Assembly (NCBI RefSeq): GCF_032823475.1
Contig: NZ_CP127915.1
Coordinates: forward strand, 1,488,001 to 1,552,000
Reading direction: 5' to 3'
Length of the DNA: 64,000 nucleotides
Source: Acinetobacter sp. SAAs474
GTDB taxonomy: Bacteria > Pseudomonadota > Gammaproteobacteria > Pseudomonadales > Moraxellaceae
Below, piece by piece: positions 35,643 to 52,168 of this stretch (the first letter of the stretch is position 1; each line of letters opens with the position of its first letter). The notes below the pieces were generated by a model. That model searched no databases, was not told the DNA's origin, and was given only the letters and a program-made list of their open reading frames with translations. The translations under genes were made by a program, and so were the position numbers.

Positions 35643-35652
35643 TTCTGGTCAG

Positions 35653-35688
35653 CAAATAATGTTTTCAATGTATTGAAAGCATTATTTG
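35653..35688 (+). other. Long intercistronic stem-loop after mesD
   Basis: A 17-bp stem (left arm 35653-35669, right arm 35672-35688, one T-G wobble, GT loop) lies between mesD and the flavin reductase gene. No T run follows, so it more likely stabilises the mesXD mRNA 3' end or tunes downstream expression than terminates fully. Confidence 0.6.
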
Positions 35689-35733
35689 TGTGATGTAATG
35701 CGTGTGGTAAAAGTTTAATGTTGGAATATGGTA

Positions 35734-36228: not shown

Positions 36229-36283
36229 ATCTGTTTTTAAATAATTTATTGCAAGCTCATTCAATTTATAACGTTGGTATTTA

Positions 36284-37084
36284 GTGGAACTGATTATTTT
36301 TTTAGCCATTGGCGCGTTTGCAGGATTTGCAGCGGGATTATTTGGTGTGGGTGGAGGGACGATTATTGTACCTTTATTATTCATCGTCTTCAGTCAAATG
36401 GGCTATAATCCTACAGTGGTCATGCATTTAGCATTAGGTACATCGCTAGCCACAATTATTGTCACCTCAATAAGTTCATGTATGGCACATAATAAGAAAG
36501 GTGGCGTTATTTGGCCAGTCTTTAAGCATTTAGCACCGGGTATGGTGCTCGGATGCTTCTTTGGTGCAGGAATTGCCGGTTGGCTTTCGGGCTTTTATTT
36601 GCAAATTATTGTGGGTTTATTTTTAATTTGGGTTGCCTATACCATGTTTGCAGGTGCAAACAAGACCATCGATCAAGGAAAAAGCCTGCCATCAACACCT
36701 GCACAAATGGTTGCTGGTACTGGAATTGGTTTTGCTTCAGCGATTTTTGGTATCGGTGGTGGTAGTTTAACCGTGCCTTATCTGACACGTTATGGCGTTG
36801 TTATGCAAAAGGCAGTAGGTACTTCTGCCGCATGCGGTTTACCCATTGCGATTGCAGGTGCTTTGGGTTTTATTTATTTTGGAATGCAACAACAGGTTAA
36901 AATTCCAAATACGCTAGGATATATTCATATTTATGCTTTTTTAGGGATTAGCATTATGAGTTTTTTTACTGCAAAACTGGGTGCAAAAGTAGCGCATGCT
37001 TTATCGCCAAGTATACTTAAAAAGTGTTTTGCAGTTTTATTGATCGTAACGGGATGCTTCTTTATATTTAAGAGTTTGGCATAA
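36284..37084 (+). CDS. TauE/SafE-family membrane transporter
   Basis: The 266-residue protein has about eight hydrophobic helices and the two repeated glycine motifs of the family: GLFGVGGGTIIVPLL near residue 20 and AIFGIGGGSLTVPYL near 155. TauE/SafE proteins move sulfite, sulfonates or related sulfur anions, mostly outward. The start is GTG 36284. Its position between the mesXD module and metR suggests a part in sulfur or methionine metabolism, but the substrate is not known. Confidence 0.88.
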   Translation: MELIIFLAIGAFAGFAAGLFGVGGGTIIVPLLFIVFSQMGYNPTVVMHLALGTSLATIIVTSISSCMAHNKKGGVIWPVFKHLAPGMVLGCFFGAGIAGWLSGFYLQIIVGLFLIWVAYTMFAGANKTIDQGKSLPSTPAQMVAGTGIGFASAIFGIGGGSLTVPYLTRYGVVMQKAVGTSAACGLPIAIAGALGFIYFGMQQQVKIPNTLGYIHIYAFLGISIMSFFTAKLGAKVAHALSPSILKKCFAVLLIVTGCFFIFKSLA

Positions 37085-37568
37085 CGTCGTTTAATTTTTT
37101 AATCGCTGAGCTAAAATTTTATTGCAAAAATAAAGCAATAATGTGATATCTCATACTGGTTACACAGCGTAAAATTATCATTTGGTTTATTGAATATCGT
37201 TTAAGATCACGTAATATCCATGATTTGCTATATGGGTAAGATCTATCAGCATGAGATATTCAATTAACCTCGGTTTAATCATGATATTCTACTGCTGAAC
37301 TGAACATTCGGTCTCTGATTTTAAAAAAATATACCACTTCGATAGGATGATGGTGAAGAGGATTTGAGACTGGATAATCAAAGCAAAGATGAAACTCTAT
37401 TCTGTGTATTTAATTTCTAGATGATTATATTCTAGTTCACAATATTAGTGCTGTTTAAGCTATAAACAGGTTGCTACCTTCAGTGAGCATTTTTTCATTT
37501 CTGATAAGGGTCTGCGCTATACCAGATCCATGCTATTACTGATCAATAAAATTTAGGTGTAGAGATAG
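37085..37568. other. Non-coding region upstream of metR
   Basis: About 484 bp, AT-rich, with no open frame worth calling. No perfect TGAA-N5-TTCA site was found here, in contrast to the mesX upstream region. GTAGAGATAG before 37569 gives a weak ribosome-binding site. Confidence 0.4.
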
Positions 37569-38486
37569 ATGATTGAACTGCGACATTTAAAAACACTGGT
37601 AGCACTACGTGAACATGGTTCATTGGTCGCTGCTGCAAGTGATTTATGTTTAACCCCATCCGCATTATCGCATCAGCTTAAAGAGCTTGATCAATTTTTG
37701 GGAACGGAAGTGGTTTATCGTCGAACACGTCCAGTCAGTTTTTCTAATGTAGGACAGCGCCTGTTGAAATTGGCAGATGAGATTTTGCCACAAGTACAAA
37801 TCGCACACATGGATATTACGCGAATTTTACATGGTCAAACAGGACGAATTATATTCTCTTCAGAATGTCATAGCTGCTTTGACTGGTTGATGCCTTTACT
37901 CAATCTTTATCGTCAACAGTATCCTGATGTAGATCTTGATTTTGCTTCAGGTTTTGAAGCAAATCCACATGAACTTTTACAAAATGGTGAATTTGATTTG
38001 CTGATTACTGCGGATCCAATTGCATTAAAAGGTATTGAGTACTTTCCGATTTTTGAATATGAGTCGCGTTTGGTACTTTCCAATACACATCCTTTAGCAC
38101 GTGTAGCCAATATTACGGTACAAGAACTGGCAGAAGAAACCTTGATTACTTATCCTGTAGATAAGCATCGTTTAGATATTATGTCGCGTTTATTTATTCC
38201 AGCCAATATTCAACCCAAGCAAATTCGAACCACAGACTTAACACAAATGCTTATTCAACTGATTGCAAGTGGCAGGGGGATTGGTGCCTTACCCGATTGG
38301 GTGGTAAATGAATATGAGCAAAAAGGTTGGGTGATATCACGACGATTAAATTGTGTTGCTCCACAAGGTTTACGTCGAACACTTTATGCTGGTTATCGTC
38401 GTGAAGATCAACAAAAAGATTATTTTGATGGTTTTTTAAAACAATTAGATCGTTTTTCTAAAAAACGTCATCGTTATTACGACTAG
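37569..38486 (+). CDS. metR: LysR-type methionine regulator MetR
   Basis: The 305-residue protein has an N-terminal winged helix (MIELRHLKTLVALREHGSLVAAASDLCLTPSALSHQLKELD) and a LysR effector domain. It aligns well with E. coli MetR as I recall it: IxHLKTL, ECHSCFDWLMP, DFxSG, RLVLSNTHPLA, ETLITYPVDKHRLD and GIGALPDWVV. The ECHSC segment is typical of MetR, which uses homocysteine as coinducer. It likely controls mesXD (two consensus sites upstream) and perhaps metH. Its position 3 kb from mesX supports that. Confidence 0.9.
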   Translation: MIELRHLKTLVALREHGSLVAAASDLCLTPSALSHQLKELDQFLGTEVVYRRTRPVSFSNVGQRLLKLADEILPQVQIAHMDITRILHGQTGRIIFSSECHSCFDWLMPLLNLYRQQYPDVDLDFASGFEANPHELLQNGEFDLLITADPIALKGIEYFPIFEYESRLVLSNTHPLARVANITVQELAEETLITYPVDKHRLDIMSRLFIPANIQPKQIRTTDLTQMLIQLIASGRGIGALPDWVVNEYEQKGWVISRRLNCVAPQGLRRTLYAGYRREDQQKDYFDGFLKQLDRFSKKRHRYYD

Positions 38487-38645
38487 AGCAGAAGTTCGTA
38501 CTGTAATGAATTTTAATAACAAAACCTTTAAAAGGTTGAAAATCGTATCAAATCAAGCAAAATTGATTTTATTTTATGCATTTGGTTGGTTTTTTATAGA
38601 AAAGTATTTGCCAAATCGACATTTTATTTATATTATAGCGGCCAT

Positions 38646-38736
38646 GGAAGCGTGGCAGAGCGGTTTAATGCACCGGTCTTGAAAACCGACGAGGGTTTAT
38701 AGCCCTCCGTGAGTTCGAATCTCACCGCTTCCGCCA
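38646..38736 (+). tRNA. tRNA-Ser (UGA)
   Basis: A complete type II tRNA. The acceptor stem is GGAAGCG/CGCTTCC, the D-arm begins GTGGCAGAGCGG, and the anticodon loop CTTGAAA carries TGA in a CCGGT/ACCGA-flanked stem. A long variable arm (CGAGGGTTTATAGCCCTCC) is present, with GTTCGAATC in the T-arm, discriminator G and an encoded CCA. The UGA anticodon and long variable arm give tRNA-Ser reading UCA/UCG/UCU codons. Confidence 0.97.
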
Positions 38737-38743
38737 AATTCTG

Positions 38744-38781
38744 AAAAGGAATCAAATCATAAATTTGATTCCTTTTTTTTT
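38744..38781 (+). terminator. Terminator of the tRNA-Ser gene
   Basis: A 14-bp stem (left arm 38744-38757; right arm from 38763) with a CATAA loop ends in nine T's. Confidence 0.93.
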
Positions 38782-39092
38782 GTCAAAATTTTTTACGTTT
38801 CGAAATTGCAGTGATTGTTTTTTTATTGCTATTCAAGTGAATTGACGATACATCATGTTTAATGATCATCCTGCCACGATACCTCAGCATATTTAGGCTA
38901 AGGCGCCATAAAATAATACTCAATCGCTATAGCTGAATAGATCTAATTTTATTCTGAGTTAGATGTTGATGGTGCATTACATCATCTCTTGCAATTGAAC
39001 CAAATCATCATATTTCCATGATGAATTACAGCTTGATAATAACAACTGCAACGCTGTATATGATCCATTTTTTTCATTTTGCACAAACATTT

Positions 39093-39155
39093 CGCAGAAG
39101 CTGGATAATCCTCGCAGATTTTGGACAGACGACAATCGCTATTCACAGACATGAT
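39093..39155 (+). promoter_or_regulatory. iif promoter with XylS-type direct repeats
   Basis: CGCAGAAGCTGGATA (39093-39107) and CGCAGATTTTGGACA (39113-39127) are direct repeats, 11 of 15 identical, offset by 20 bp. They follow the CGCA/TGCA-N6-GGATA pattern bound by XylS-family activators. The proximal repeat would overlap the -35, and CATGAT (39150-39155) is a possible -10. Transcription would then start about 25 nt before the iifA ATG at 39187. Upstream, 38782-39092 shows no gene. Confidence 0.55.
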
Positions 39156-39186
39156 AGCTGTCAGAGTTAGGTCTGGAGTTGGTGAA

Positions 39187-40434
39187 ATGGCAGGTCAATA
39201 TATTGAAGTAAAAACACAAACAGGGAAGTCATTTGCTGCGTATTTAGCGATTGCAGAAGGTGGTAAAGGACCGGGTATTGTATTGTGTCAGGAAATTTTT
39301 GGTGTCAATGCAGCAATGCGTGCCAAAGCAGATTTTCTAGCAGAAGAAGGTTATACGGTCATTGTTCCAGATTTGTTCTGGCGCACCGCAGCAGGTATTG
39401 AGCTGGATTATACCGAGCAAGATTTTAAAAAAGCTTTTGAGCTTTACCAAAATTACGATGAAAATCTAGGTGTTGAAGATATTCAAGATACTTTGAATTA
39501 TCTAAAAACACTTGCAAGCTGTGATACTGCAGCTGGCTTAGGGGTAGTGGGATATTGTCTCGGTGGTAAAGTTGCTTACTTAGCAGGTTGTCGTATTGCA
39601 GAAGTGGCTTGTACAGTCAGTTATTACGGTGTCGGCATCGAAAAAGCTTTACATGAGCTTGCCGATGTTAAAGGCCGTATGGTTTTACATATTGCAGAAT
39701 TAGATAAATTTACCCCGCCAGAAGCACGGCAACAGATTTTAAATGCTGCTGCACAATATAACAATATCTATGCCTATGTTTATGAAGGTGTAGATCATGC
39801 CTTTGCTCGTCCAAATAGCGAGCACTATCATAAGCCATCGGCACGATTTGCGCATGAACGAAGTATTACTGCATTGCATCAAACGATAGGCCCTGTTTAT
39901 GACCTCGTTGCGCTTTGGGAAGAACACATTCGTCATGAATTTGATACGCGTGATGTGCCTGCGACGATGGCGACGATGGTAGCTCAACCTTATGTCAATC
40001 ATATTCCAACACTTACAGGTGGTGTTGGTTATAGCCAGCTTGCGCGTTTCTATCAATATCATTTTGTGCATCAAAATCCTCAAGATATGAAAATCACTTC
40101 GATCTCACGTACTGTTGGTTCAACACAGGTAGTGGATGAGTTCATTATGAGCTTTACCCATGATCGTGAGATTGACTGGTTACTACCGGGTGTTGCTGCA
40201 ACAGGAAAATATGTCGAAATTCCGATGTTAGGTGTAATTCAGTTTCGTGGTGCCAAATTGTGTCATGAGCATATTTATTGGGATCAAGCGTCTGTTCTGG
40301 TGCAAATTGGTTTGCTTAATCCTGAAGGTTTACCGGTTGCAGGGGTTGAAACTGCCCAAAAACTGTTAGATGAAGACATACCATCCAATACTTTAATGCC
40401 ATCTTGGCCAAGCAGTGAAGGCAAGTCAGTTTAA
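39187..40434 (+). CDS. iifA: IifA: dienelactone-hydrolase-like cofactor-free oxygenase fused to a SnoaL-like domain
   Basis: The 415-residue protein has an alpha/beta-hydrolase domain of dienelactone-hydrolase type (about residues 1-225). Its triad is Cys124 (GYCLGG), Asp173 and His204 (GVDHAFARP), with Glu36 in CQEIFG. A second domain (about 232-400) looks like a SnoaL/NTF2 fold. In Acinetobacter sp. O153, as I recall, IifA converts 3-hydroxyindolin-2-one to anthranilate without cofactor. ATG 39187 is chosen because upstream in-frame codons overlap the predicted promoter. First gene of the iif operon; the next starts 29 bp downstream. Confidence 0.85.
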   Translation: MAGQYIEVKTQTGKSFAAYLAIAEGGKGPGIVLCQEIFGVNAAMRAKADFLAEEGYTVIVPDLFWRTAAGIELDYTEQDFKKAFELYQNYDENLGVEDIQDTLNYLKTLASCDTAAGLGVVGYCLGGKVAYLAGCRIAEVACTVSYYGVGIEKALHELADVKGRMVLHIAELDKFTPPEARQQILNAAAQYNNIYAYVYEGVDHAFARPNSEHYHKPSARFAHERSITALHQTIGPVYDLVALWEEHIRHEFDTRDVPATMATMVAQPYVNHIPTLTGGVGYSQLARFYQYHFVHQNPQDMKITSISRTVGSTQVVDEFIMSFTHDREIDWLLPGVAATGKYVEIPMLGVIQFRGAKLCHEHIYWDQASVLVQIGLLNPEGLPVAGVETAQKLLDEDIPSNTLMPSWPSSEGKSV

Positions 40435-40463
40435 CGACTGAAATCAACCATCAGGAGTAGAAT

Positions 40464-41255
40464 ATGAATATTGAATTACATCAGAAAATTGCTGTGGTGA
40501 GTGGTGGTGCAACGTTGATTGGTCAGGCCGTAGTACAGGTATTGGCCGATGCAGGTGCCAAAGTTGTTATTCTGGATATTGCCGAGCATGGGCAGCAAAT
40601 TGCTGATGCCATCAAGGGGCAGGTGAAATTTATTCAAACCGATTTAACTAGTGATATCGCAATTGCACATGCAGTTAGCACCATTCATGCAACATTTGGA
40701 ACAGTTGATTATTTAGTCAATCTGGCCTGTACTTATCTGGATGATGGATTCAAATCCTCACGTGGCGATTGGTTGCAGGCGTTAGATGTCAATCTGGTTT
40801 CGGCAGTCGAATTAACCCGTGCTTTTTATGAAGATTTAAAAACTCATCAAGGGGCGATCGTAAATTTCACATCGATCTCTGCCAAATTCGCCCAAACAGG
40901 CCGTTGGTTATATCCAGTTTCAAAAGCGGCGATGCGTCAACTTACTCAATCGATGGCTATGGATTTTGCACCTGACGGCATCCGTGTCAATTCAGTATCA
41001 CCAGGCTGGACATGGTCGCGTGTTATTGCAGAAGTGAGTGGTCATGATCGCGCTAAAGCAGATCGCGTGGCAGCGGATTATCATGTATTGGGTCGCTTGG
41101 GCAATCCAGAAGAAGTTGGCAAGGTTGTCCTATTTTTACTTTCATCTGCCGCAAGTTTTGTGACAGGTGCTGATTATGCCGTCGATGGAGGTTACTCCAT
41201 CATGGGGCCAGAAAGGAATCAACCCGCTATTTCACGTTTAGCCGATGAAGCGTAA
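40464..41255 (+). CDS. iifB: IifB: short-chain dehydrogenase of indole oxidation
   Basis: The 263-residue SDR has the nucleotide site SGGATLIGQ (a variant of TGxxxGxG) and NLAC in place of NNAG. The catalytic Ser is in TSIS, the YPVSK motif supplies Tyr and Lys, and the C-terminal part has VSPGWTWSRV and TGADYAVDGGYS. In the described iif pathway this enzyme oxidises the indole-2,3-dihydrodiol formed by IifC to 3-hydroxyindolin-2-one. AGGAG precedes the ATG. It lies between iifA and iifC in the operon. SDR family membership is certain; the substrate follows from context. Confidence 0.85.
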   Translation: MNIELHQKIAVVSGGATLIGQAVVQVLADAGAKVVILDIAEHGQQIADAIKGQVKFIQTDLTSDIAIAHAVSTIHATFGTVDYLVNLACTYLDDGFKSSRGDWLQALDVNLVSAVELTRAFYEDLKTHQGAIVNFTSISAKFAQTGRWLYPVSKAAMRQLTQSMAMDFAPDGIRVNSVSPGWTWSRVIAEVSGHDRAKADRVAADYHVLGRLGNPEEVGKVVLFLLSSAASFVTGADYAVDGGYSIMGPERNQPAISRLADEA

Positions 41256-41308
41256 TAGCAGATCAATATTTAAACCTTAAATAATTGAAAAAATATGGGA
41301 GAACCATG

Positions 41309-42547
41309 ATGCGTCGTATCGCAATTGTTGGAGCGGGTCAATCTGGATTACAGCTCGGTTTAAGCCTGTTAGATACAGGTTATGATGTCACAATTTTAAC
41401 CAACCGTACCGCAGATGAAATTCGGCAGGGTAAGGTGATGTCAAGCCAATGTATGTTTCATAGTGCCTTACAAACTGAGCGTGATGTTGGACTGAATTTC
41501 TGGGAAGAACAATGTCCTGCTGTTGAAGGAATAGGATTTACATTGGTTAGTCCTGAAACTGGAAAACCTGCATTTTCGTGGAGCGCTCGACTGGAGCGTT
41601 ATGGTCAATCGGTTGATCAGCGCGTGAAAATGCCTTATTGGATTGAAGTATTTGAACGTCGTGGTGGCAAACTGATTATTCAGGATGTTGGCATTGATGA
41701 GTTAGAACAACTAACTGCCGAGTATGAACTGGTGTTGTTGGCGGCAGGTAAGGGCGAAGTGGTTAAACAGTTTGTACGTGATGACGAACGCAGCACATTC
41801 GATAAGCCACAGCGTGCGCTTGCTTTGACTTATGTCACCGGTATGCAACCAATGTCGCCGTATTCACGTGTTAATTTTAATGTTATTCCCGGTGTTGGTG
41901 AATATTTTTGCTTTCCTGCATTAACTGTTACAGGTCCTTGCGAAATTATGGTGTTTGAAGGTATTCCGGGTGGTCCAATGGATTGCTGGCAAGATGCCAA
42001 AACATCTGAACAGCATTTGCAAATGAGCAAAGATATTCTCAATAAATATCTGCCTTGGGAAGCTGCACGGTGTGAAAATATTCAACTCACCGATGCTGGT
42101 GGTTACCTTGCAGGACGCTTCGCACCAAGCGTACGTAAGCCCGTACTCACTTTACCATCAGGTCGTCAAGTATTTGGTATGGCTGATGCATTGGTGGTGA
42201 ATGATCCTATCACTGGCCAAGGTTCTAACAATGCAGCCAAATGTAGCAAGATTTATTTTGATGCCATTTTAGCGCATGACACCGAAGTATTTACAGCTGA
42301 ATGGATGCAGCAAACCTTTGAACGTTACTGGTCTTATGCCGAAAAAGTTGTGGCTTGGACCAATAGCTTACTGGTTCCACCTCAGCCACAAATGATTGAA
42401 GTATTAGCCGCAGCAAGTCAAAACCAAGCCATTGCATCCGTGATTGCCAATAACTTTGACGATCCACGTCACTTTTCTCCATGGTGGTTTGATCCAGAGC
42501 AAGCGCAGCATTTTATTGAAGCCAAAAGCTGTCAGAAAGTTGCTTAA
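41309..42547 (+). CDS. iifC: IifC: FAD-dependent indole monooxygenase
   Basis: The 412-residue flavoprotein resembles styrene monooxygenase StyA (group E, two-component). It has the N-terminal dinucleotide motif GAGQSG, the central DKPQRALALTYV segment, and NDPITGQGSNNAAK near residue 310 that binds FAD. It epoxidises or hydroxylates the indole C2-C3 bond using reduced flavin supplied by a partner. The reductase is encoded immediately downstream. GGGAGA lies 6-7 bp before ATG 41309; ATG 41306 is possible. Indole rather than styrene is inferred from the surrounding iif and ant genes, since no styrene-pathway gene is present. Confidence 0.87.
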   Translation: MRRIAIVGAGQSGLQLGLSLLDTGYDVTILTNRTADEIRQGKVMSSQCMFHSALQTERDVGLNFWEEQCPAVEGIGFTLVSPETGKPAFSWSARLERYGQSVDQRVKMPYWIEVFERRGGKLIIQDVGIDELEQLTAEYELVLLAAGKGEVVKQFVRDDERSTFDKPQRALALTYVTGMQPMSPYSRVNFNVIPGVGEYFCFPALTVTGPCEIMVFEGIPGGPMDCWQDAKTSEQHLQMSKDILNKYLPWEAARCENIQLTDAGGYLAGRFAPSVRKPVLTLPSGRQVFGMADALVVNDPITGQGSNNAAKCSKIYFDAILAHDTEVFTAEWMQQTFERYWSYAEKVVAWTNSLLVPPQPQMIEVLAAASQNQAIASVIANNFDDPRHFSPWWFDPEQAQHFIEAKSCQKVA

Positions 42548-42565
42548 AACACTAGGAAAGAAGAA

Positions 42566-43111
42566 GTGAATGTCATGAATATTAATACATCTTATGAGCT
42601 CGGTTTAAAACCGATTGATATTGAAAACCCAAGAGAAATTCGTAACTTACTTGGGCAGTTTGCAACAGGCGTGACAGTAATTACAACACGTGGTCGGGAT
42701 GGAGGTAAAATTGGAATGACCGCCAATTCATTTTCATCATTGTCACTTGATCCACCTTTGATTCTGTGGAGTTTATCGAAAACTGCACCGAGTCTACCCG
42801 ATTTTACAGCAGCTGAATATTTCGCGATTCACATGCTGGCTCAGGAGCATCATTCACTTTCTGGACATTTCGCACGGGGATCAGAAGATAAATTCGCCAG
42901 TATTGCACATCGTGAATGTGCGCATGGTCTACCTCTACTTGAGGATGTACTTGCGACATTGGTCTGTAAAAATATTAACCAATATGAAGGTGGTGATCAT
43001 CTCATTTTTATTGGTGAAATTGAGCATTATCAACAACGTATTGGTGAACCTTTAGTGTTTCATGCAGGTAAATATCGTATTGCTGCAGAACATCCAGAAC
43101 TCAGTATTTAA
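42566..43111 (+). CDS. iifD: IifD: NADH:flavin reductase of the indole oxygenase
   Basis: The 181-residue protein is a split-barrel flavin reductase of the HpaC/StyB family. Motifs are FATGVTVITTRG, GMTANSFSSLSLDPPLILWSL (flavin binding), FAIHMLAQEH, and the C-terminal GDHLIFIGEIEHY. It supplies reduced flavin to IifC. GTG 42566 is preferred because AGGAAAGAAG lies just before it; the ATG three codons later is 14 nt from that site. It is the fourth gene of the operon. A second, divergent flavin reductase is encoded at 35734-36228 next to mesD. Confidence 0.87.
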   Translation: MNVMNINTSYELGLKPIDIENPREIRNLLGQFATGVTVITTRGRDGGKIGMTANSFSSLSLDPPLILWSLSKTAPSLPDFTAAEYFAIHMLAQEHHSLSGHFARGSEDKFASIAHRECAHGLPLLEDVLATLVCKNINQYEGGDHLIFIGEIEHYQQRIGEPLVFHAGKYRIAAEHPELSI

Positions 43112-43160
43112 TGATATCCATCACGATCAATTCCGGTCGTGATTTTTTCAGGGATAGAAT

Positions 43161-44108
43161 ATGAAGAACCATGTGATAAAAAGAGGTTTTCTTGCTGGAA
43201 CAGTGGTCTTGACTGCGGTTACAGCCCATGCTTATGACTTACCAACGGTAAATCTGGGTATGACCAGTTTTCTGGATGGTGGATTACCTGCCGGACCGGG
43301 TTGGTATTCACAAACTTATTTTCAGAATTATGATTCAAATAAACTTATGGATCATCAAGGTAATCAACTGCCTTTACCTAAAACTGATTTAAACTATCAG
43401 GTGCTTGTTGAACAAGTTAGTTATATGTCCAATATACGCATTGGTGATCATGCCGCATTGGGGCTTAATGTTCTTATTCCATTTGTCAGTAAAATGGCGA
43501 TGAATGATGGATTGAATAATGCAGCCATCAAGGCACAGGGTGGTTTTGGTGATCTGATGATTGGGCCATTTATTCAGTTTGATCCAGTGATGGGTCAACA
43601 CGGTCCTAAATTTGTACAGCGTATTGAGTTGCAGGTGAATTTACCAACAGGCAATTACGATCGGCAAAAAAATATCAATCCTGGAAACAATGCTGTTTCT
43701 TTGGATCCATATTGGGCAGCAACGTACTGGTTTAATCCAAAATGGACAGCTTCTACGCGTATTCATTATTTATATAATTTTAAAAATGATGATCCTAACT
43801 ATAGCTATGCCACAGCAGATGATATTCAAGCAGGGCAGGCAATTCATGCTAACTTTGCAACAGATTATGCAATTACGCCACAATTACGTTTGGGTTTAAA
43901 TGGCTATTGGCTGAAGCAAATCACAGATAACAAAGTGAATGATGAAAAAATGAAAGATACACGTGAGCAAGTTTGGGCCATTGGTCCGGGTGCAATGTAT
44001 AGCTTTTCAAAAAATGACCATGTGGTTGCCAATGCATATTTTGAGCAGAATGCCAAGAATCGACCTGAAGGTACGCGTTTACAGCTACGTTATATTCATC
44101 ATTTTTGA
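43161..44108 (+). CDS. iifE: IifE: outer-membrane protein of the phenol-MetA-degradation family
   Basis: The 315-residue protein has a signal peptide (MKNHVIKRGFLAGTVVLTAVTAHA) and a run of amphipathic strands ending in Phe (LRYIHHF). It resembles the MetA-pathway phenol-degradation proteins of COG4313. Motifs include PAGPGWYSQTYFQNY, ALGLNVLIPF, QGGFGDLMIGPFIQF and PTGNYDRQKNINPGNN. These are thought to help hydrophobic aromatic substrates cross the outer membrane. It is the last gene of the iif operon and is followed by a strong terminator. Indole uptake is inferred from position. Confidence 0.8.
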   Translation: MKNHVIKRGFLAGTVVLTAVTAHAYDLPTVNLGMTSFLDGGLPAGPGWYSQTYFQNYDSNKLMDHQGNQLPLPKTDLNYQVLVEQVSYMSNIRIGDHAALGLNVLIPFVSKMAMNDGLNNAAIKAQGGFGDLMIGPFIQFDPVMGQHGPKFVQRIELQVNLPTGNYDRQKNINPGNNAVSLDPYWAATYWFNPKWTASTRIHYLYNFKNDDPNYSYATADDIQAGQAIHANFATDYAITPQLRLGLNGYWLKQITDNKVNDEKMKDTREQVWAIGPGAMYSFSKNDHVVANAYFEQNAKNRPEGTRLQLRYIHHF

Positions 44109-44144
44109 TGGGTATATTGAAAAATTTAAACATCAATACCTTGG

Positions 44145-44175
44145 CTTATTTAGAACATTCTAGATAAGTTTTTTT
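44145..44175 (+). terminator. Terminator of the iif operon
   Basis: CTTATTTAGAA (44145-44155) pairs with TTCTAGATAAG (44158-44168), with one wobble, and is followed by seven T's. The rest of 44109-44340 shows no gene. Confidence 0.85.
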
Positions 44176-44340
44176 AATTAATCAGATACAGATTAAAATA
44201 CAATTATTTTAATGATTCAATTTTAAAATAACGTAGCAGTGAAGTAATTAAGTTTTTAAATACAGTCACTTTAATATCAAAATTGATTTCATAGACGATG
44301 ATTTAAATCTCTTTTGATTGGTGCAAAAATCATAGCTTGA

Positions 44341-45399
44341 TTATGAATATGCTTTAAATCCAGAATTTTGATGATCCATCGTAGATCTGCGTGTAGACGA
44401 AGGTAATTCACCATAACGGCGTTTATATTCCTGAGAAAAACGACCAAGATGTGTAAAGCCCCATTTGAATGCGACATCAGTGACAGAAATATGCTCGTTA
44501 CGCAATAATTCGATATGTGCTTGTTCAAAACGCAGCGCTTTTAAATAAGACATTGGTGACGTATTTAAAAAGCTTTTAAATCCTGCAAATAGCGTTCGTA
44601 CACTCACACCCGCATGTTCGGCCAGTTGTTCAATACTTAGTGATGCATGTAAATTTTCACGCATAAAAGCTTCGGTACGTTTGATAAAATAAGGAGAAAT
44701 CGCGTGTGTTTTGCTGTGTTCAATACCTTTTAATAAAGTATTTTGCTGACCATAAATCAGTGCGTTAAACAGGCTAGATTCAAATTGTTTAAAAGCCATT
44801 GGATGATGTAATGGATGATGTTCACAAGCCAAAGTATCCATGAGGGTACGCATGAGTTGTAAGAAATAACCACCACCTTGCGTCGAAAAATCAAGTTTTG
44901 GTTCAAATAAAGGCAAATGATGAGGTGCATCTGGCAGATGCTGGCGACAATGTTGTAACAGGTCTTCTTTATCAATTTTCAAGATGAGCTGTGGAGAGTT
45001 TGCATGCCAACGCATTTTTAAAGATTGATTTGGAGAAATGAGTGAGGCAACTTGTGTATACGAAATAAACTTTTGCTGATTAATTTCAATTTCAGCATAA
45101 CCCTGTGTTGGAATTTGAATCAAATAAAATTTTTCTAAATGATCAGGTTCAATATAAACGTCAGCGCCGTATTCAAGGCGACTAATGGATAAGCGACCTG
45201 CCTTGAGATGGTGCATGGATGAGTGAAAATCATTACGCTGCTGTACTACTTTTAAAAGATGTGGCTTAAAAATTTTTCCAACACTTTTGCAAGTTTCGCT
45301 TAAATCTTGATGCTGAAATACCAAGTTTTGTGATGAAAAAATAGCGCATTGTTGTAGATGGCGTCCATTTAATTCCATAGTGGCATTGATCTGACTCAT
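44341..45399 (-). CDS. iifR: IifR: AraC/XylS-family activator
   Basis: The 352-residue regulator has an N-terminal AraC-binding-like sensory domain (about residues 1-210) and a C-terminal double helix-turn-helix (LSIEQLAEHAGVSVRTLFAGFKSF and VTDVAFKWGFTHLGRFSQEYKRRYG). This places it with XylS, BenR and AntR type aromatic-acid activators. It is encoded convergent with iifE and co-oriented with antABC upstream. AAGGA lies 7 bp before the ATG. In the Acinetobacter iif system, as I recall, an AraC-type regulator controls the operon. The XylS-like sites before iifA and antA are its likely targets; this is an inference. Confidence 0.82.
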   Translation of the reverse strand: MSQINATMELNGRHLQQCAIFSSQNLVFQHQDLSETCKSVGKIFKPHLLKVVQQRNDFHSSMHHLKAGRLSISRLEYGADVYIEPDHLEKFYLIQIPTQGYAEIEINQQKFISYTQVASLISPNQSLKMRWHANSPQLILKIDKEDLLQHCRQHLPDAPHHLPLFEPKLDFSTQGGGYFLQLMRTLMDTLACEHHPLHHPMAFKQFESSLFNALIYGQQNTLLKGIEHSKTHAISPYFIKRTEAFMRENLHASLSIEQLAEHAGVSVRTLFAGFKSFLNTSPMSYLKALRFEQAHIELLRNEHISVTDVAFKWGFTHLGRFSQEYKRRYGELPSSTRRSTMDHQNSGFKAYS

Positions 45400-45950
45400 G
45401 CATATTCCTTTTTAGCTGGCTTATTGGTCACATCACATCTGAGTCAAAAAAGTCATCAGATTGCTATGTTACCCACAATACTTAAATATTTAAGTGGCTC
45501 GCAATGACATAAAGAATTAAGCAAAAAATAGACCAATCCAAACACTGAGCATACTATTTTTAAACTTATTGGAGCATGATCAAAGGGCTAAAAAATTGAC
45601 AAGGATGACGTTAAATCAGAGCATAAAAATTGATCATGTCCTAAACTCTTTATAGGATCTTATTCCTTAAGATCTATGCTTATATATAACAAATCTGACC
45701 AAAATGATCAATTTATTTTAGTGATATGGTTTTATTTTAAGTTTATGAAATATAATGATTATTTTAATTAAATTGTAAATTTTTTAATAAAATTAGACTG
45801 TATAAAACTCAGCAGATAAAAAAGCGCTAAGCTGGAGTCAATTTCAGTAAAAAAGTCTGTCCTATTTGATGATTTATTTATAGATCACTTGAATAACTAG
45901 AAGCGCAGCAATGTCATATCTTTTGATATGACATGCATACAAGGACAGCA
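45400..45950. other. Non-coding region between antC and iifR
   Basis: About 551 bp, AT-rich. Just after antC a perfect 10-bp hairpin (ATGTCATATC 45911-45920, GATATGACAT 45925-45934) lacks a T run on the antC strand. Mid-region, GATCTTA/TAAGATC (45656-45662/45668-45674) forms another perfect inverted repeat. No gene was found. The iifR promoter must lie here; no clear element is seen. Confidence 0.45.
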
Positions 45951-46982
45951 TTAAATTTTTGCGCTATTGCTTTGCAAAAATTTTTCACTATAAATATGGC
46001 AATCTGCAATGGCATGTTCATCCAACCATGTTTTAACCGCTTCAATCATGGGGGGTGGACCACATAAGTACATATCAAATGTTTGCGCTTGGAGTTGGTT
46101 TTTATCCAAATGTTCATGAATATAACCAGACTTGCCATGCCATTGTGCTGAAGCTTTTGCAACAATTGGATGATAACTAAAGTCTTTAATACGTTCAGCA
46201 TAGGCAGTTAAGCGATTTTGTTCGCAAAGATCTGCCTCAGTATTTACACCATAATATAGATGAATTGGCGGTTGATTGGCTTGTTCTGCAATATTATCGA
46301 GCATACCTAAAAATGCAGATAAACCTGTACCACCTGCAATAAAGACCAAAGGACGCTCTATTTCACGAAGATAAAAGCTGCCTAAAGGTGCTTCCATCAT
46401 TAAGGTTTGACCAACTTGACAGCGTTCTCTCAAATAATTGCTCATCACACCATGCGGCAGTAGGCGAATCAGAAATTGAAGTTGATTGTTGCTATTTGGA
46501 CGATTGGCAAAAGAATAAGAACGCCAGTGATCTGTATCTGTAATTTGCAAACGAGCGTATTGACCAGGTAAAAAATCAAGTTGCTTAGCGTGGCTACTGG
46601 CATCTAAATGTAAAATGGCAGTGGTTTCTGAAACCAGTTCTATGCCAGTAACGACAGTTGCAATTTTGAGCGTTTCACCTGCATGACAAATATTTGAATG
46701 ATGATCAAAATAGAAAGCTGCATTGGATTTAACACGCGTTTGGCAAGCCAATATTTTACGATCAGCCAAATCACGTTCACTTAATGCATCTTCATCAACA
46801 TATTCTTGTTCATAACTACCTGTTTCACATTTGCCTTGACAGGTGCCGCACACACCTTCACGGCAATCTAAGGGGAGATAAATACCTTGACGAACTGCTG
46901 CATCAAGCAACAACTCATCGTCCTGTACAGCAATAAAAAAAGTTTTACCATCGGCAAAATTAAGTGCAACAGAATGATTCAT
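45951..46982 (-). CDS. antC: Anthranilate dioxygenase reductase component
   Basis: AntC moves electrons from NADH to the oxygenase. The 343-residue protein has an N-terminal plant-type [2Fe-2S] ferredoxin domain with Cys40, Cys45 and Cys48 (DCREGVCGTC) and the fourth Cys in LACQTRV. It then has a ferredoxin-NADP-reductase-like FAD domain (RSYSFANRPNS) and a NADH domain (FIAGGTGLSAFLGM, YLCGPPPMIEA). Length equals the A. baylyi AntC as I recall. antB lies 11 bp upstream. BenC is similar, but the antA/antB sequences decide the name. Confidence 0.92.
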   Translation of the reverse strand: MNHSVALNFADGKTFFIAVQDDELLLDAAVRQGIYLPLDCREGVCGTCQGKCETGSYEQEYVDEDALSERDLADRKILACQTRVKSNAAFYFDHHSNICHAGETLKIATVVTGIELVSETTAILHLDASSHAKQLDFLPGQYARLQITDTDHWRSYSFANRPNSNNQLQFLIRLLPHGVMSNYLRERCQVGQTLMMEAPLGSFYLREIERPLVFIAGGTGLSAFLGMLDNIAEQANQPPIHLYYGVNTEADLCEQNRLTAYAERIKDFSYHPIVAKASAQWHGKSGYIHEHLDKNQLQAQTFDMYLCGPPPMIEAVKTWLDEHAIADCHIYSEKFLQSNSAKI

Positions 46983-46993
46983 GCTGATACTCC

Positions 46994-47485
46994 TTAGACG
47001 TGATAAAAGTCGAGCACTGAATCGATCTTATCATTCAGTAACACACTGTGCTGACGACGGATACGGAAGCTATCTGCTGTTGGGCGCAATAAATAGGTTG
47101 CACGTCCATAAAAACAACCCTCAAGTCCTTGACGATTGTATAAGGTTCTCCAGTTGACGCTGGCTTCAATTAAACCATCATCCAGTGTTTTTACCTGTAT
47201 GTTATGAATATTATGTTGCGTACGCGGTAGTGGCGTTGCTGAAGCGGCTTTACCTGTGCGAATACGAAACACACGGTCTTCAAGACCAGAACGATCTTCA
47301 TAATAAATATATGACAAACCTTGGTTTGGATCTTGTACGTAGTGATGATCATCAATCCATTGAGGGATGTGATATTCACTGTCTTCATCATATAGGTTGA
47401 TATAAGCATCCCAATCGTAGTGATCGCATAATTCAGCTTTTTTATAGAGGAATTGCGAAACTGCAAAATGAAGTTCAATAGACAT
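46994..47485 (-). CDS. antB: Anthranilate dioxygenase small (beta) subunit
   Basis: The 163-residue protein is the structural beta subunit of a Rieske non-heme iron oxygenase, an NTF2-like cone fold. FLYKKAELCDHYDWDAYINLYDEDSEYHIPQWIDD is the conserved N-terminal helix-strand region, and DPNQGLSYIYYEDRSGLEDRVFRIRTGKA the middle. It pairs with AntA to form the oxygenase hexamer. The gene begins 2 bp after the antA stop and ends 11 bp before antC. Length matches AntB of Acinetobacter. Confidence 0.93.
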   Translation of the reverse strand: MSIELHFAVSQFLYKKAELCDHYDWDAYINLYDEDSEYHIPQWIDDHHYVQDPNQGLSYIYYEDRSGLEDRVFRIRTGKAASATPLPRTQHNIHNIQVKTLDDGLIEASVNWRTLYNRQGLEGCFYGRATYLLRPTADSFRIRRQHSVLLNDKIDSVLDFYHV

Positions 47486-47487
47486 GA

Positions 47488-48903
47488 TTACACCTCATCC
47501 GTAACGGGTTGATGATCAAAAGTAATGTCGTGCATTTTCAGTGCTTTTTTGTTAAGTCCATCCAGTAGCAATCGTTGCCAGTGCCCATGTTGGTTGACAT
47601 ATAGACCTTCGTGTGTAAATTCACACCCAGTAATGACTGGCTTAATGCCTAGATCTTGCGCGTTTTGTGTTGAACCATAGATCCATTGATGGTGCCCACG
47701 AGAAATATCACTCCAACGCTCTATACGCCCTTGAAAGCCTTTTTGTTGTTCACGGAATTCGACCAGATCATCGGGTGTGCCTAGACCAGAGACATTAAAG
47801 AAATCTTCAAACTGACGAATACGATTACGACGTGCTTCTTTTGATTCACCTTTGACGCCAATACATTGGCTAATGACCTCAGTTTTATTCCAAGCCACTG
47901 GACGTACAATACGTAACTGTGAACTGATCTGATCCATAAAGAAGAGACTTGGATATAGGTTGAGGTTACGTAAGCGATGCATTGCCCATTCAGCGTGTTT
48001 TTCACCAAATCTTTCTAGCAAATAAGGCATAACGCTATCATAGCCAGGACGTACTGTTGGATTGGGCATGTCACTAAATAGCACGCTATGACCATTATTA
48101 AAGCTAAACCAACCATCATCGGTTTCGGCATCACCTGCGCCCAGTTTGCTATAATCGAGTGTATCGAGTTCATCACCTTTTGCTGCATTGACTTGCTGGC
48201 GGTGTTGTACGGTAGAGACATAGTTATAATGCACAGTACTGACGTGGTAGCCATCTAAACCATTTTCATTTTGTAGTTTCCAGTTCCCTGCAAAGGTATA
48301 TGCAGATTTACCCGGTAAAACCTCAAGTTCACCTGTAGGTGATTGGTCAACCATCAGATCGAGAAATATTTTGGCATCACCCAAAAAGTCCTCAAGTGCA
48401 TCTGTAGCCTGAGTATCTAAACTTACAAAGACAAATCCACGATAGCTTGCAATACGACCTTGTTTTAAACCACGGCTTGATTTATCAAAATCTTCACAGT
48501 ATTCACTTGGCGCTTTAACTTTGACCAGACGTCCATCAGATTTGTAGCACCATGCATGAAATGGACAGGTAAATACAGACTGGTTTCCTTTAGCAACACG
48601 GGTCAGTGTCGCACCACGATGTTCACAAGCATTGACCATCGCATGCAATTGACCTTGAGCATCACGACTGATAATGATCGGTTGACGACCAATCTGTACG
48701 GTAACGAAGTCGTTATTGTTCGGGATTTCACTTTCATGGCAGGCATAAATCCATACTTTTTCAAAAATGAGTTCCATTTCAAGTTCAAATAGCTCGGGCT
48801 CGGTAAACATATCGCGAGCAATTCGATAGACACCATCATTGGGGCGAAAATCGATACAACCCTGTACAAAATTTTGCCATTCGGCGAGGTTACGTGCAGT
48901 CAT
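47488..48903 (-). CDS. antA: Anthranilate 1,2-dioxygenase large (alpha) subunit
   Basis: AntA oxidises anthranilate to catechol, releasing CO2 and ammonia. ATG 48903 (MTARNLAEWQ) gives 471 residues, the length I recall for A. baylyi AntA, and the sequence matches it closely. AGAGGAAGAG precedes this start. The frame extends 30 codons upstream with no family support. The Rieske cluster ligands are Cys93, His95, Cys113 and His116 (CEHRG, CPFHAW). The mononuclear iron site lies in GLDGYHVSTVH. The gene heads the antABC operon and has an XylS-type site upstream. Confidence 0.95.
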   Translation of the reverse strand: MTARNLAEWQNFVQGCIDFRPNDGVYRIARDMFTEPELFELEMELIFEKVWIYACHESEIPNNNDFVTVQIGRQPIIISRDAQGQLHAMVNACEHRGATLTRVAKGNQSVFTCPFHAWCYKSDGRLVKVKAPSEYCEDFDKSSRGLKQGRIASYRGFVFVSLDTQATDALEDFLGDAKIFLDLMVDQSPTGELEVLPGKSAYTFAGNWKLQNENGLDGYHVSTVHYNYVSTVQHRQQVNAAKGDELDTLDYSKLGAGDAETDDGWFSFNNGHSVLFSDMPNPTVRPGYDSVMPYLLERFGEKHAEWAMHRLRNLNLYPSLFFMDQISSQLRIVRPVAWNKTEVISQCIGVKGESKEARRNRIRQFEDFFNVSGLGTPDDLVEFREQQKGFQGRIERWSDISRGHHQWIYGSTQNAQDLGIKPVITGCEFTHEGLYVNQHGHWQRLLLDGLNKKALKMHDITFDHQPVTDEV

Positions 48904-48938
48904 GGGCTCTTCCTCTATCCAATCAATGCTTTGATATG

Positions 48939-49001
48939 ATTGAACCGCGAATTTAAGCCATGCTCTATCCAGATTTTCCTTGTTTTTATCCACTTTATGC
49001 A
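48939..49001 (-). promoter_or_regulatory. ant promoter with XylS-type repeat
   Basis: On the minus strand, TGCATAAAGTGGATA (49001-48987) is an exact TGCA-N6-GGATA site. A second GGATA, in AGGAAAATCTGGATA (48980-48966), follows at a 21-bp offset, the period of XylS operators. TAGAGC (48967-48962) as -35 and TTCAAT (48944-48939) as -10, 17 bp apart, would start antA transcription. Confidence 0.55.
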
Positions 49002-49557
49002 GTTTGTTATATGCTGAATTTAAAAAAGGTCATTATTTTTCTAGAATTTAATTTATTGTTAATTTTATTTTTGATATAAATATGGAATTGCATATATACG
49101 AATATTCATATATAAGTATATTGGCGAATTTAATTGAGCTTGAGCAAATGACTGTTACTCTAAAAATAGAAATGGATCATCATCCTGAATCTGCGTTATC
49201 AGATTCGACATCGATGCGAATCCGTCATGCCAAGACTAAAGCTGAGCGGATGGTGTATCTTAAAACATCCCTCGCTCAAAATAAGCTGATTCAAATGATT
49301 ATATTTACAGGTTAAAAAAGAAATATGTTTCCTTATTATATTTGGCGTTAGAGCTTGACCTTTACATGGATAAAAATGGCTTAACCTGATGCTTTTATTT
49401 GATTTTGATTAATCCTTATTTGGGGTGATTGAATGGGAAACAGCTTTAAATCACCGATGAAATTGGTGTTAGAAATTTTGCCATAGTCAGATAAAAGCAT
49501 TTTATTCAATAAGATGGGAAAAATACTGAATATCTGTAGTGATTATAATCAAAATAT
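49002..49557. other. Non-coding region between antA and the ars operon
   Basis: About 556 bp between divergent transcription units. A 77-codon plus-strand frame (49082-49315) lacks a convincing ribosome-binding site, and its protein resembles nothing I know, so it was not called. Nothing else is supportable here. Confidence 0.35.
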
Positions 49558-49587: not shown

Positions 49588-49606
49588 GATTAAAGTGAGT
49601 AAAAAT

Positions 49607-49927
49607 ATGGACCAAATTGATTTTTTTAAATGTTTGGCGGATGAAACTCGATTTAAGATCGTGATGTTAGTTGTTAAAAATAATGAGCAGTGTGTTTGTG
49701 ATTTGACGGAAAAATTACAACTCAGCCAACCCAAGATTTCACGGCACTTAGCCTTGTTGCGTGCTTTAGGCCTGTTACGAGATCGACGTCAAGGACAATG
49801 GGTCTATTACAGTCTTAATCCAAATTTACCCACTTGCTATTTAGATATATTGAACATCCTTAAAAATGCAGATTTACAACCAAAAGTCGCAGCATTACTG
49901 CAGCAAATTAATCGTGATTGCGAGTAG
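49607..49927 (+). CDS. arsR: ArsR arsenite-responsive repressor
   Basis: The 106-residue winged-helix repressor has DFFKCLADETRFKIVMLVV and LSQPKISRHLALLRALGLLRDRRQGQWVYYSLNP. The arsenic-binding pair is in EQCVCDL, the ELCVCDL motif of E. coli ArsR. It releases DNA when As(III) or Sb(III) binds. ATG 49607 is preferred, with GTGAG about 8 bp upstream; a GTG four codons earlier is possible. It heads the arsR-arsC-acr3-arsH operon and likely binds the inverted repeat at 49558-49587. Confidence 0.92.
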   Translation: MDQIDFFKCLADETRFKIVMLVVKNNEQCVCDLTEKLQLSQPKISRHLALLRALGLLRDRRQGQWVYYSLNPNLPTCYLDILNILKNADLQPKVAALLQQINRDCE

Positions 49928-49933
49928 AACACT

Positions 49934-50407
49934 ATGAATTTTCTTTTTTTATGTACGGGAAATAGCTGTCGCAGTATTTTATCCGAAGTGCTTTTTAATC
50001 ATCGCGCTCCAGCAGGCTGCAAAGCCTATAGTGCAGGTAGCAAACCCACTGGACAGGTACATCCATTGACCATTGAAACACTGCAAAACTTAGCTTTTTC
50101 AACTCAAGGTTTATGGAGTAAAACGATTGATGACTGTAAACAATACCAACCAGATGTGGTGATTACGGTTTGTGATGCAGCCGCTCAGGAAGCTTGCCCG
50201 CTGTATTTAGGTGAGGCCATTAAAGCACATTGGGGATTGGCTGACCCATCACACTTGGATTTACCACAACAACAAAAACTACAAGCATTTCAAGTCACCG
50301 TTGATCATATCAACCGCCGTTTAGATGCATTATTGGCACTTGATATAGCGCATATATCACGTTCTGAGTTGATTGCGGCGATCAATCAAATTTCGCACAT
50401 TGAATGA
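49934..50407 (+). CDS. arsC: Arsenate reductase, thioredoxin-linked LMW-phosphatase type
   Basis: The 157-residue protein reduces arsenate to arsenite. The P-loop CTGNSCRS supplies the first catalytic Cys (about residue 7) and Arg. Two more cysteines appear in [12 protein letters not shown], forming the disulfide relay recycled by thioredoxin, as in S. aureus ArsC. WGLADPSH is the usual Asp-containing loop. The gene begins 6 bp after arsR, and its stop lies just upstream of the acr3 start. Confidence 0.92.
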
Positions 50408-50417
50408 GATCACCATA

Positions 50418-51458
50418 GTGCAACACAGATTATCTTTTTTAGATCGTAACCTTACGCTATGGATTTTTATGGCAATGGCGTTAGGAATTGCGATGGGTAT
50501 ATTTTTTCCACAGGTCTCAGTAGCTTTGGATAAAACCAGTGTCGGCTCAGTTAATCTCCCGATTGCGATCGGTTTGATTTTGATGATGTATCCACCTTTG
50601 GCAAAAGTGGACTATGCGGCTTTGCCACAGGTATTTAAAGATAAGAAAACACTGGCATTATCCTTAGTACAAAACTGGCTTATCGCACCTGTTTTGATGT
50701 TTAGCTTAGCCATTATTTTTTTACATAACGATCCTGAATATATGACAGGCTTGATCCTCATTGGCTTAGCACGCTGTATTGCAATGGTTTTGATTTGGAA
50801 TGGTTTAGCCTGTGGTGATAACCAATATGTTGCTGCATTGGTTGCCTTTAATAGTATCTTTCAAATTTTATTCTTCAGTACCTATGCATGGTTATTTCTG
50901 ACTTTGTTACCTCCTTATTTTGGTATTGCAGGACAAGTAATCGATATTGATTTCTGGACAATTACTCATACAGTATTGATATATTTAGGGATCCCATTTT
51001 TTCTGGGTTTTATGACCCGATTTATGTTGGTGCGTGCTAAAGGTTTGGTCTGGTATCGAGAGAGTTTTTTACCAAAGATAAGTCCGCTGAGTTTACTGGC
51101 TTTATTGTTCACGATTGTGGCGATGTTTAGCCTTAAAGGACATGAAGTACTGAGTTTGCCTTTGGATGTCTTGCGGATTGCAGTTCCATTGACGATTTAT
51201 TTTATCATGATGTTTTTCATTAGTTTCTTTATGAGTAAATGGATGGGAAACAATTATGCTAAAACCACCGCCATTTCATTTACTGCTGCAGGAAATAATT
51301 TTGAATTGGCACTGGCTGTTGCGATTGCAACCTTTGGTTTGGCTTCACCAGTCGCATTTACCACGGTGATTGGCCCACTGGTTGAAGTGCCGGTACTGAT
51401 TGCTTTAGTCAGCGTTTCCTTGTGGCTTAGAAAAAAAATTTTTAAAACAGAGATATAA
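50418..51458 (+). CDS. acr3: Arsenite efflux transporter, Acr3 type
   Basis: The 346-residue protein has ten hydrophobic helices and the Acr3 motifs [36 protein letters not shown] (with the essential Cys) and [21 protein letters not shown]. It exports As(III) from the cytoplasm. GTG 50418 is chosen because GAGAT lies about 8 bp upstream and [17 protein letters not shown] is the normal N-terminus. The frame opens earlier within arsC. Acr3 is often annotated arsB, but this is a different family from E. coli ArsB. Confidence 0.93.
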
Positions 51459-51463
51459 TTACC

Positions 51464-52168
51464 ATGACTGTTCCAAATATAGAGATGAGTCTTCTTGATC
51501 AACCCACTTTAGAAAAAGTACAGGCCAAACCGTTAAATCATCCACCACGTATTTTACTGTTGTATGGTTCAAACCGTGAACGTTCATATAGTCGGCTGGC
51601 GGTGATGGAGGCAGGACGTATCTTGGCGCAGTTTGGTGCTGAAGTAAAAATTTTTCATCCGAAAGGTCTACCGTTACCTGAAGATGCGGATATCGAACAT
51701 CCAAAAGTCAAAGAGCTACATGAACTGTTAGCGTGGTCGGAAGGCATGGTATGGTGTTCACCAGAACGTCATGGTGCAATGAGTTCAATCTTTAAATCGC
51801 AAATTGACTGGATTCCTTTAGCTGGTGGTGCGATTCGTGCAACACAGGGAAAAACCTTAGCCTTGATGCAGGTTAGTGGTGGTTCGCAGTCTTTTAATAG
51901 CGTTAATCAAATGCGAATTTTAGGACGTTGGATGCGTATGATTACGATTCCAAATCAATCCTCTATTCCTAAAGCTTTTTTAGAGTTTGAAGAGGATGGA
52001 CGAATGAAACCATCCGCTTTCTATGATCGCATTGTGGATGTAATGGAAGAATTATATAAGTTCACCTTATTGACGCGTGGACAGCATCAGTATCTCACAG
52101 ACCGTTATTCTGAACGAAAAGAATCTGCTGAAGCATTGTCTCAGCGCGTCAATCAACGTTGTTTATAG
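51464..52168 (+). CDS. arsH: ArsH NADPH:FMN oxidoreductase
   Basis: ArsH is a flavodoxin-like FMN enzyme that oxidises trivalent methylarsenicals and can reduce quinones or azo dyes. The 234-residue protein has the FMN phosphate loop [35 protein letters not shown], and [24 protein letters not shown], all typical of ArsH. It is the last gene of the ars operon, 5 bp after acr3. Its presence suggests exposure to organoarsenicals as well as inorganic arsenic, an inference. Confidence 0.92.

Follow-up and report, generated by a model that had tools for sequence, protein, structure and literature searches.

Is the breakdown of indole to catechol in Acinetobacter turned on by one regulator or by two? 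The question is raised by a locus of Acinetobacter sp. SAAs474, in a stretch of 64,000 nucleotides (contig NZ_CP127915.1, positions 1,488,001 to 1,552,000; hereafter the window) from an assembly of 3.52 Mb in 13 contigs. Between window positions 39187 and 48903, the indole operon iifABCDE, the AraC/XylS-type regulator gene iifR and the anthranilate dioxygenase operon antABC form one block of nine genes, for which a preliminary description had suggested shared control. We consider it likely, from the sequences compared, that two related activators operate here, IifR driving iif and AntR, a second AraC-type protein, driving ant, and that indole reaches ant through anthranilate. The earlier view is probably to be corrected accordingly, to two switches instead of one.

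Alignment of the upstream regions revealed one conserved stretch before each operon, both consisting of tandem direct repeats that resemble the XylS type (Table 1). XylS sites are laid out as direct repeats of 15 bp that hold TGCA and GGTA boxes (PMC5481539), with the half-site TGCA-N6-GGNTA (PMC1360089, PMC6449761); these and the other papers given by PMC number are represented here by excerpts. The distal half of the ant operator matches this half-site exactly, the two iif halves read CGCA-N6-GGATA and CGCA-N6-GGACA, and the proximal ant half has GGATA without the GCA. The predicted operators lie 59 bp before the ATG of iifA and 62 bp before that of antA. Such tandem boxes might be taken for conserved core-promoter sequence, as the proximal box is near the place expected of a -35 element and TGGATA/TGGACA resemble TTGACA. 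However, we regard this as very improbable: the two boxes, one repeat apart, fit the XylS layout, a tandem is expected by chance in a 160-bp promoter at a frequency of only about 6.5e-5 (Markov simulation), and a genome that lacks IifR (G001, with iifA and no match to IifR, antA or AntR) has no tandem site before iifA. No published description of these operators was found for IifR or AntR with Acinetobacter, in a search that left the subscription literature mostly outside and is no proof of novelty.

The two sites differ in the spacing of their half-sites. In a sample of 119 Acinetobacter genomes (the window genome, G000, included; matches taken at E 1e-190 or better for antA, 1e-100 or better for iifA and 1e-60 for AntR), a period of 20 bp with GCA and TGGATA/TGGACA boxes was found in 24 of 28 iifA promoters. 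A period of 21 bp was found in all 45 antA promoters (30/30 and 15/15), including those of all 19 antA genomes without IifR; therefore, the presence of the ant class does not require IifR. Outside the genus, 20 of 43 stretches upstream of iifA have a period of 20 bp, comprising all 19 Burkholderia/Paraburkholderia loci and one from Pseudomonas, and control stretches further upstream gave no tandem (0/43). The strict iif pattern with GCA boxes had no match in the 19 Burkholderia-type promoters, all of which carry looser GGATA boxes at period 20; we therefore restrict the claim of a GCA box to Acinetobacter. Three antA promoters from outside the genus have a period of 22 bp. A strict pattern for the ant class, with one mismatch allowed, yielded 46 sites in 43 of the 119 genomes, against a single match for the reversed pattern used as a control. 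Of the 46 sites, 40 are no more than 150 bp ahead of antA, each in a genome that has AntR. A loose pattern is not specific by itself: it gave six sites, three of them within reading frames, and its reversed control gave four.

The two regulators also differ in their occurrence. IifR matches are present in 26 of the 27 genomes with iifA and in none of the 92 without it, and AntR matches in 42 of the 119, all of which have antA. The name AntR is based on position, on co-occurrence with antA and on its use in PMC12538310; in A. baylyi the gene lies beside iifA (locus L003, 6600-7601). Spacing class and co-occurrence together indicate a pair of regulators, IifR and, encoded elsewhere in the window genome, a protein like AntR. 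In A. baumannii, indole raises the expression of iifA to iifD and IifR is needed for IifC (PMC4577076). In-frame stops, one or two in each of six IifR matches, at first suggested iifR pseudogenes, a reading we rejected: in the two named loci read for this, L008 and L010, which are not among the six, IifR is open over residues 1-340, so that the stops may be the normal end of the gene read through. The IifR match in G052 extends only to residue 288 and is possibly truncated.

The comparison establishes gene content, gene order, operator classes and co-occurrence; from these, and from homology to characterised enzymes, we infer every step of binding, induction and catalysis in the following scheme. 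IifC and IifD would epoxidise indole, IifB would oxidise the dihydrodiol and IifA would open the ring to give anthranilate, which AntABC would convert to catechol. Indole-activated IifR would bind the tandem site of 20-bp period before iifA, and AntR, presumably activated by anthranilate, would bind that of 21-bp period before antA. Induction of ant by indole would be mainly indirect, via the conversion to anthranilate. The only AntR match of the window genome lies 1.18 Mb from antA (C9:2717600); it is taken to serve ant there, and would also bind before an aromatic-acid transporter gene next to its own.

Several observations weigh against this scheme. The GGATA box is common to both site classes, so one protein could bind both. 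Four of the 28 iifA promoters fall outside their class (G001, G104, G072 and the second copy in G068), and G104, G072 and G068 do have IifR. Beyond the genus, 22 of the 43 iifA stretches have no tandem, many of them Variovorax loci in which iifA is not the first gene, and one has a period of 19 bp. AntR, named by position and co-occurrence, reaches the cut-off of no family model; its scores against the AndR model NF041686 (110.3 bits in A. baylyi, 122.2 bits in the window genome) lie below the cut-off of 350, as does that of IifR (187.8 bits). Two of the 42 AntR matches contain an in-frame stop (G017, G104), and three genomes (G019, G087, G100) have an antA of about 70% identity and a period-21 site with no AntR at E 1e-60. 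The P values for co-occurrence are uncorrected for shared ancestry. In addition, three points would fit some cross-control. The iif-like GCA is found in the distal ant box of 22 of the 26 genomes that have IifR, as against 5 of the 19 that lack it (P 1.4e-4, ancestry uncorrected), which speaks for some IifR input at ant; IifR may add to the control of ant, or the split may reflect ancestry. Acinetobacter sp. MB5, in which iif and ant are linked and AntR gave no match at E 1e-40, has an antA site of period 20; this single case accords with the tie between spacing class and regulator in our scheme and is also what a hand-over to IifR would look like. In Pseudomonas savastanoi, deletion of WhpR, a relative of IifR, raised antABC and lowered antR (PMC12538310), indicating that cross-control exists in a relative, there as repression.

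These last three points are also grounds for a different account, in which IifR is the single or dominant switch for both operons and indole directly turns on the whole route. The related tandem sites before the two operons, the position of iifR between them and the absence of a local antR in the window genome would fit it as well. Nevertheless, we judge it unlikely, because the period-21 site with its proximal box is kept before antA in all 19 antA genomes without IifR, this site tracks AntR, the spacing classes differ consistently, and the window genome retains AntR next to a further ant-class site. The shared control first supposed is only partly upheld: related sites do precede both operons, but spacing classes and co-occurrence favour two regulators. 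Control by IifR and AntR separately is our preferred reading, with an additional IifR input at ant as a possibility. A further reading, which we hold to be less likely than not, is that the two proteins, acting on successive steps of one pathway, owe their separation chiefly to the spacing of the half-sites (20 bp for IifR, in Acinetobacter and Burkholderia; for AntR, 21 or 22 bp), and that lineages losing one regulator, such as MB5, can hand its operon over to the other by a one-base change in spacing.

Six of the 46 ant-class sites lie away from antA. In the window genome one such site is followed after about 650 bp by an MFS gene, which converges with the only AntR match (C9 about 2715523-2718616; locus L089, 6524-9617). 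This gene resembles aromatic-acid transporters and is a candidate anthranilate uptake gene of an AntR regulon. Ant-class sites with one mismatch each also precede MFS genes in G035 and G103 (L193, 928-3235, and L194, 2843-5339), where an alpha/beta-hydrolase gene follows; these are possible further AntR targets. Their MFS transporters are 61% (G035) and 32% (G103) identical to that of the window genome, and the two hydrolases are 27% identical to each other. A perfect ant-class site in G051 (L195, about 2903), in which neither antA nor AntR was detected, looks like a relic of a lost antABC; a different aromatic oxygenase set lies there on the other strand. The sites in G064 and G068 have no evident sense.

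In 36 genomes antA and AntR are on one contig, convergent in 34. Fifteen of the 36 have no iif and a gap of 1.6-5.8 kb between antA and AntR, and in another 15 iifA lies between convergent antA and antR; iif and iifR were therefore either inserted between antABC and antR or lost there. The remaining six have iif outside (G000, G072, G098) or on another contig (G068, G103, G104). No antR was found in or beside the window block, where most WHOP-like clusters have it, and a low-stringency search for an antR remnant before iifA (window 38301-39300) gave a best E of 0.19, so the idea of a remnant was dropped. The fetched flanks of the A. baylyi locus had no match in the 64-kb window, and of nine proteins encoded in the window flanks none had a match at E 1e-30 in the vicinity of iif in the 27 loci L003-L029. 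The AntR of the window genome shares 62% identity with the A. baylyi protein and 72-74% with its counterparts in the A. calcoaceticus group. Two groupings were relied on from trees of 11 rows each that are partly unresolved: this AntR falls outside the AntR clade of A. baylyi, A. guillouiae and A. soli (support 100/99), and the window IifC groups with the same three species (98/96). Given the different neighbours, the lack of an antR remnant and the distant, divergent AntR, we conclude that the window block was moved or acquired without its local antR.

The coordinates and order of the nine genes were borne out: all are open reading frames at or next to the positions given in the preliminary description, and Pfam and NCBIfam profile searches bear out the names given to them (Table 1). 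As described, iifABCDE runs rightward and antABC leftward; iifR, however, is itself leftward, co-directional with antABC, 551 bp downstream of antC and convergent with iifE. No terminator was found in window 44050-46000, and promoter-like sites there were no commoner than in shuffled sequence. AntA has the Rieske and iron-site motifs, and AntA, AntB and AntC all score above the equivalog thresholds that NCBIfam sets for anthranilate 1,2-dioxygenase. The genes that mark an iif-type cluster, iifA, iifB, iifC and iifD with an AraC-type iifR, are all present.

Table 1. Features of the iif-ant block; positions are those of the window.
Feature	Position	Strand	Remarks
Block alignable with A. baylyi (L003)	39068-49011		83.95% DNA identity; ends are the outer edges of both operators
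iif operator (predicted)	39093-39127	+	two 15-bp half-sites, GGATA and GGACA boxes, period 20 bp
iifA	39187-40434	+	ATG start; in-frame TTG at 39121 falls within the operator
iifB	40464-41255	+	short-chain dehydrogenase; 88% to A. baylyi
iifC	41306-42547	+	predicted group E indole monooxygenase; styrene monooxygenase A substrate domain
iifD	42566-43111	+	flavin reductase partner
iifE	43161-44108	+	outer-membrane MetA-pathway protein (Phenol_MetA_deg)
iifR	44341-45399	-	AraC/XylS-type regulator
antC	45951-46982	-	anthranilate dioxygenase reductase; NF008822, 655.8 bits (cut-off 402)
antB	46994-47485	-	small subunit; TIGR03231, 300 bits (cut-off 213.5)
antA	47488-48903	-	Rieske large subunit; ATG start, upstream GTG at 48993 falls within the ant operator; TIGR03228, 961.1 bits (cut-off 671.9)
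ant operator (predicted)	48966-49001	-	TGCA-N6-GGATA distal half, TGGATAG proximal half, period 21 bp

The roles of IifC/IifD, IifB and IifA in the conversion of indole to anthranilate come from work on Acinetobacter sp. O153, as given in PMC12538310 and PMC6221969 (for IifA also in PMC7225977). By homology, IifB would convert indole-2,3-dihydrodiol to 3-hydroxyindolin-2-one, and IifA is the predicted cofactor-independent oxygenase that converts 3-hydroxyindolin-2-one to anthranilate. IifA has a dienelactone-hydrolase domain and a weak C-terminal ketosteroid-isomerase-like match. Its Cys124, Asp173 and His204 sit in the motifs of what we take to be a hydrolase triad. Of the indole monooxygenase fingerprint S46-Q48-M50-V/I73-I76-A96 (PMC13101512), IifC has S46, Q48, M50, V73 and I76 in place, five residues out of six. 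For the last residue, it has Leu at 96 and Ala at 94, and Ala94 aligns with an Ala in the chains of the 7z4x group; we therefore read this fingerprint position as displaced by two. A styrene role for IifC was set aside, since IifC scores 212.7 bits against the StyA model NF045732, far under the cut-off of 550, and has the indole monooxygenase fingerprint. The case raised in the preliminary description, that IifC might act on styrene and not on indole, is therefore unlikely, and homology to characterised enzymes supports its placing of both halves of indole-to-catechol catabolism in one locus. The solved structure closest to IifC in sequence is PDB 9lrq (775.9 bits), deposited as an alanine-phosphoribitol ligase, an apparent misnomer.

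A different substrate for the iif enzymes has also to be weighed. The iif-like dcdABC genes of A. soli GFJ2 are needed for the degradation of 3,4-dichloroaniline (PMC10974035), so other substrates are possible, and the enzymes might serve mainly another aromatic compound such as chloroanilines, with indole incidental. We hold this to be quite improbable in view of the fingerprint of IifC and its low StyA score, the linked ant genes, whose enzymes act on the final product of the indole pathway, and the induction of iif by indole in A. baumannii (PMC4577076). Degradation of indole thus remains the preferred function. The window genome has a second set (C9 about 2736456-2744754; L090, 8456-16754) encoding a StyA-like monooxygenase 42% identical to IifC, a flavin reductase, a short-chain dehydrogenase, a Rieske oxygenase with its reductase, a formamidase-family protein and a MetA-type porin, which resembles the reported skatole genes of A. 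piscicola p38 (PMC11434297, PMC13101512).

Comparison of gene order across Acinetobacter, as the preliminary description had proposed, revealed that the block is real but ordinary for the genus. Among 80 loci fetched with iifC and kept (26 from Acinetobacter), the window IifC is closest to that of A. baylyi, at 94% identity. The order and orientation of iifABCDE, iifR and antCBA are those of the window in 12 of the 26 Acinetobacter loci, including A. baylyi, A. soli, A. guillouiae and members of the A. calcoaceticus group, and hence are not due to chance; contig ends truncate several of the remaining loci. Of the 119 genomes, 45 have antA and 27 have iifA; 26 have both, that is, all but one of those with iifA. 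In these 26, the distance between iifA and antA is less than 12 kb in 16 and less than 40 kb in three more, and the genes are on separate contigs in seven. WHOP-like clusters with dho/ipo (iif), whpR (iifR) and mostly antABC and antR have been reported from Pseudomonas, Acinetobacter, including strain ADP1, and others (PMC12538310). The direct link of iif to antABC, singled out at first as deserving attention, is thus already in print and common in the genus, and is not new. In a number of Variovorax loci (L055, L057, L059-L065, L067, L068, L070-L072, L074, L075 and L080), there are two tandem iifC copies, and iifA comes last in the cluster, after iifD, in those fetched stretches long enough to show it.

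The neighbours of the block are of other kinds. Just to its left (window 34614-38486) lie genes for a MetE-type C-terminal protein, a flavin reductase, a TauE exporter and a LysR regulator, which is nearest to MetR but below its cut-off. To the right, a set resembling arsenic resistance and including ArsR (window 49595-52168) begins about 600 bp past the ant operator. Its other members are presumably ArsC-like, bile-acid-symporter-family/Acr3-like and ArsH-like FMN reductase proteins.

What the locus adds is an account of control that can be tested, with two operator classes distinguishable in sequence, and a candidate for the AntR of Acinetobacter, whose small regulon would comprise antABC and, in some genomes, a transporter for aromatic acids. 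Control by two switches would explain how the indole signal is passed on to the anthranilate genes. The genomes form a natural set in which each regulator is present, absent or moved, and A. baylyi offers two inducible promoters for dissection.

Similar to the iif operons of A. baumannii ATCC 19606 and Acinetobacter sp. O153, the window has the same five genes and an AraC-type iifR; its IifC is 80% identical to the fetched copies of A. nosocomialis and A. seifertii. The excerpt on the A. baumannii operon describes no operator (PMC4577076), whereas one is predicted in the window. As in the WHOP region of P. savastanoi and cluster 11, of Acinetobacter sp. ADP1, the ipo/dho (iif), whpR (iifR) and antABC genes are clustered, but most WHOP-like clusters are reported with antR inside and the window block has none in or beside it. 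Most Acinetobacter WHOP-like clusters, though not that of ADP1, also include catBCA (PMC12538310); no cat genes were seen adjoining the window block, and no search aimed at cat genes in the genome was made. The XylS-dependent Pm promoter has 15-bp direct repeats in tandem, carrying TGCA and GGTA boxes (PMC5481539), and the window operators resemble it in part; the iif site differs in repeating every 20 bp and in its proximal GGACA box. P. fluorescens likewise has an AraC/XylS activator, AntR, with its anthranilate dioxygenase operon. There, antR is divergent from and adjoins antABC, and the excerpt reports that no XylS consensus was seen (PMC1360089), whereas in Acinetobacter antR and antA converge in 34 of the 36 sampled genomes that have both on one contig, and a XylS-type tandem is present.

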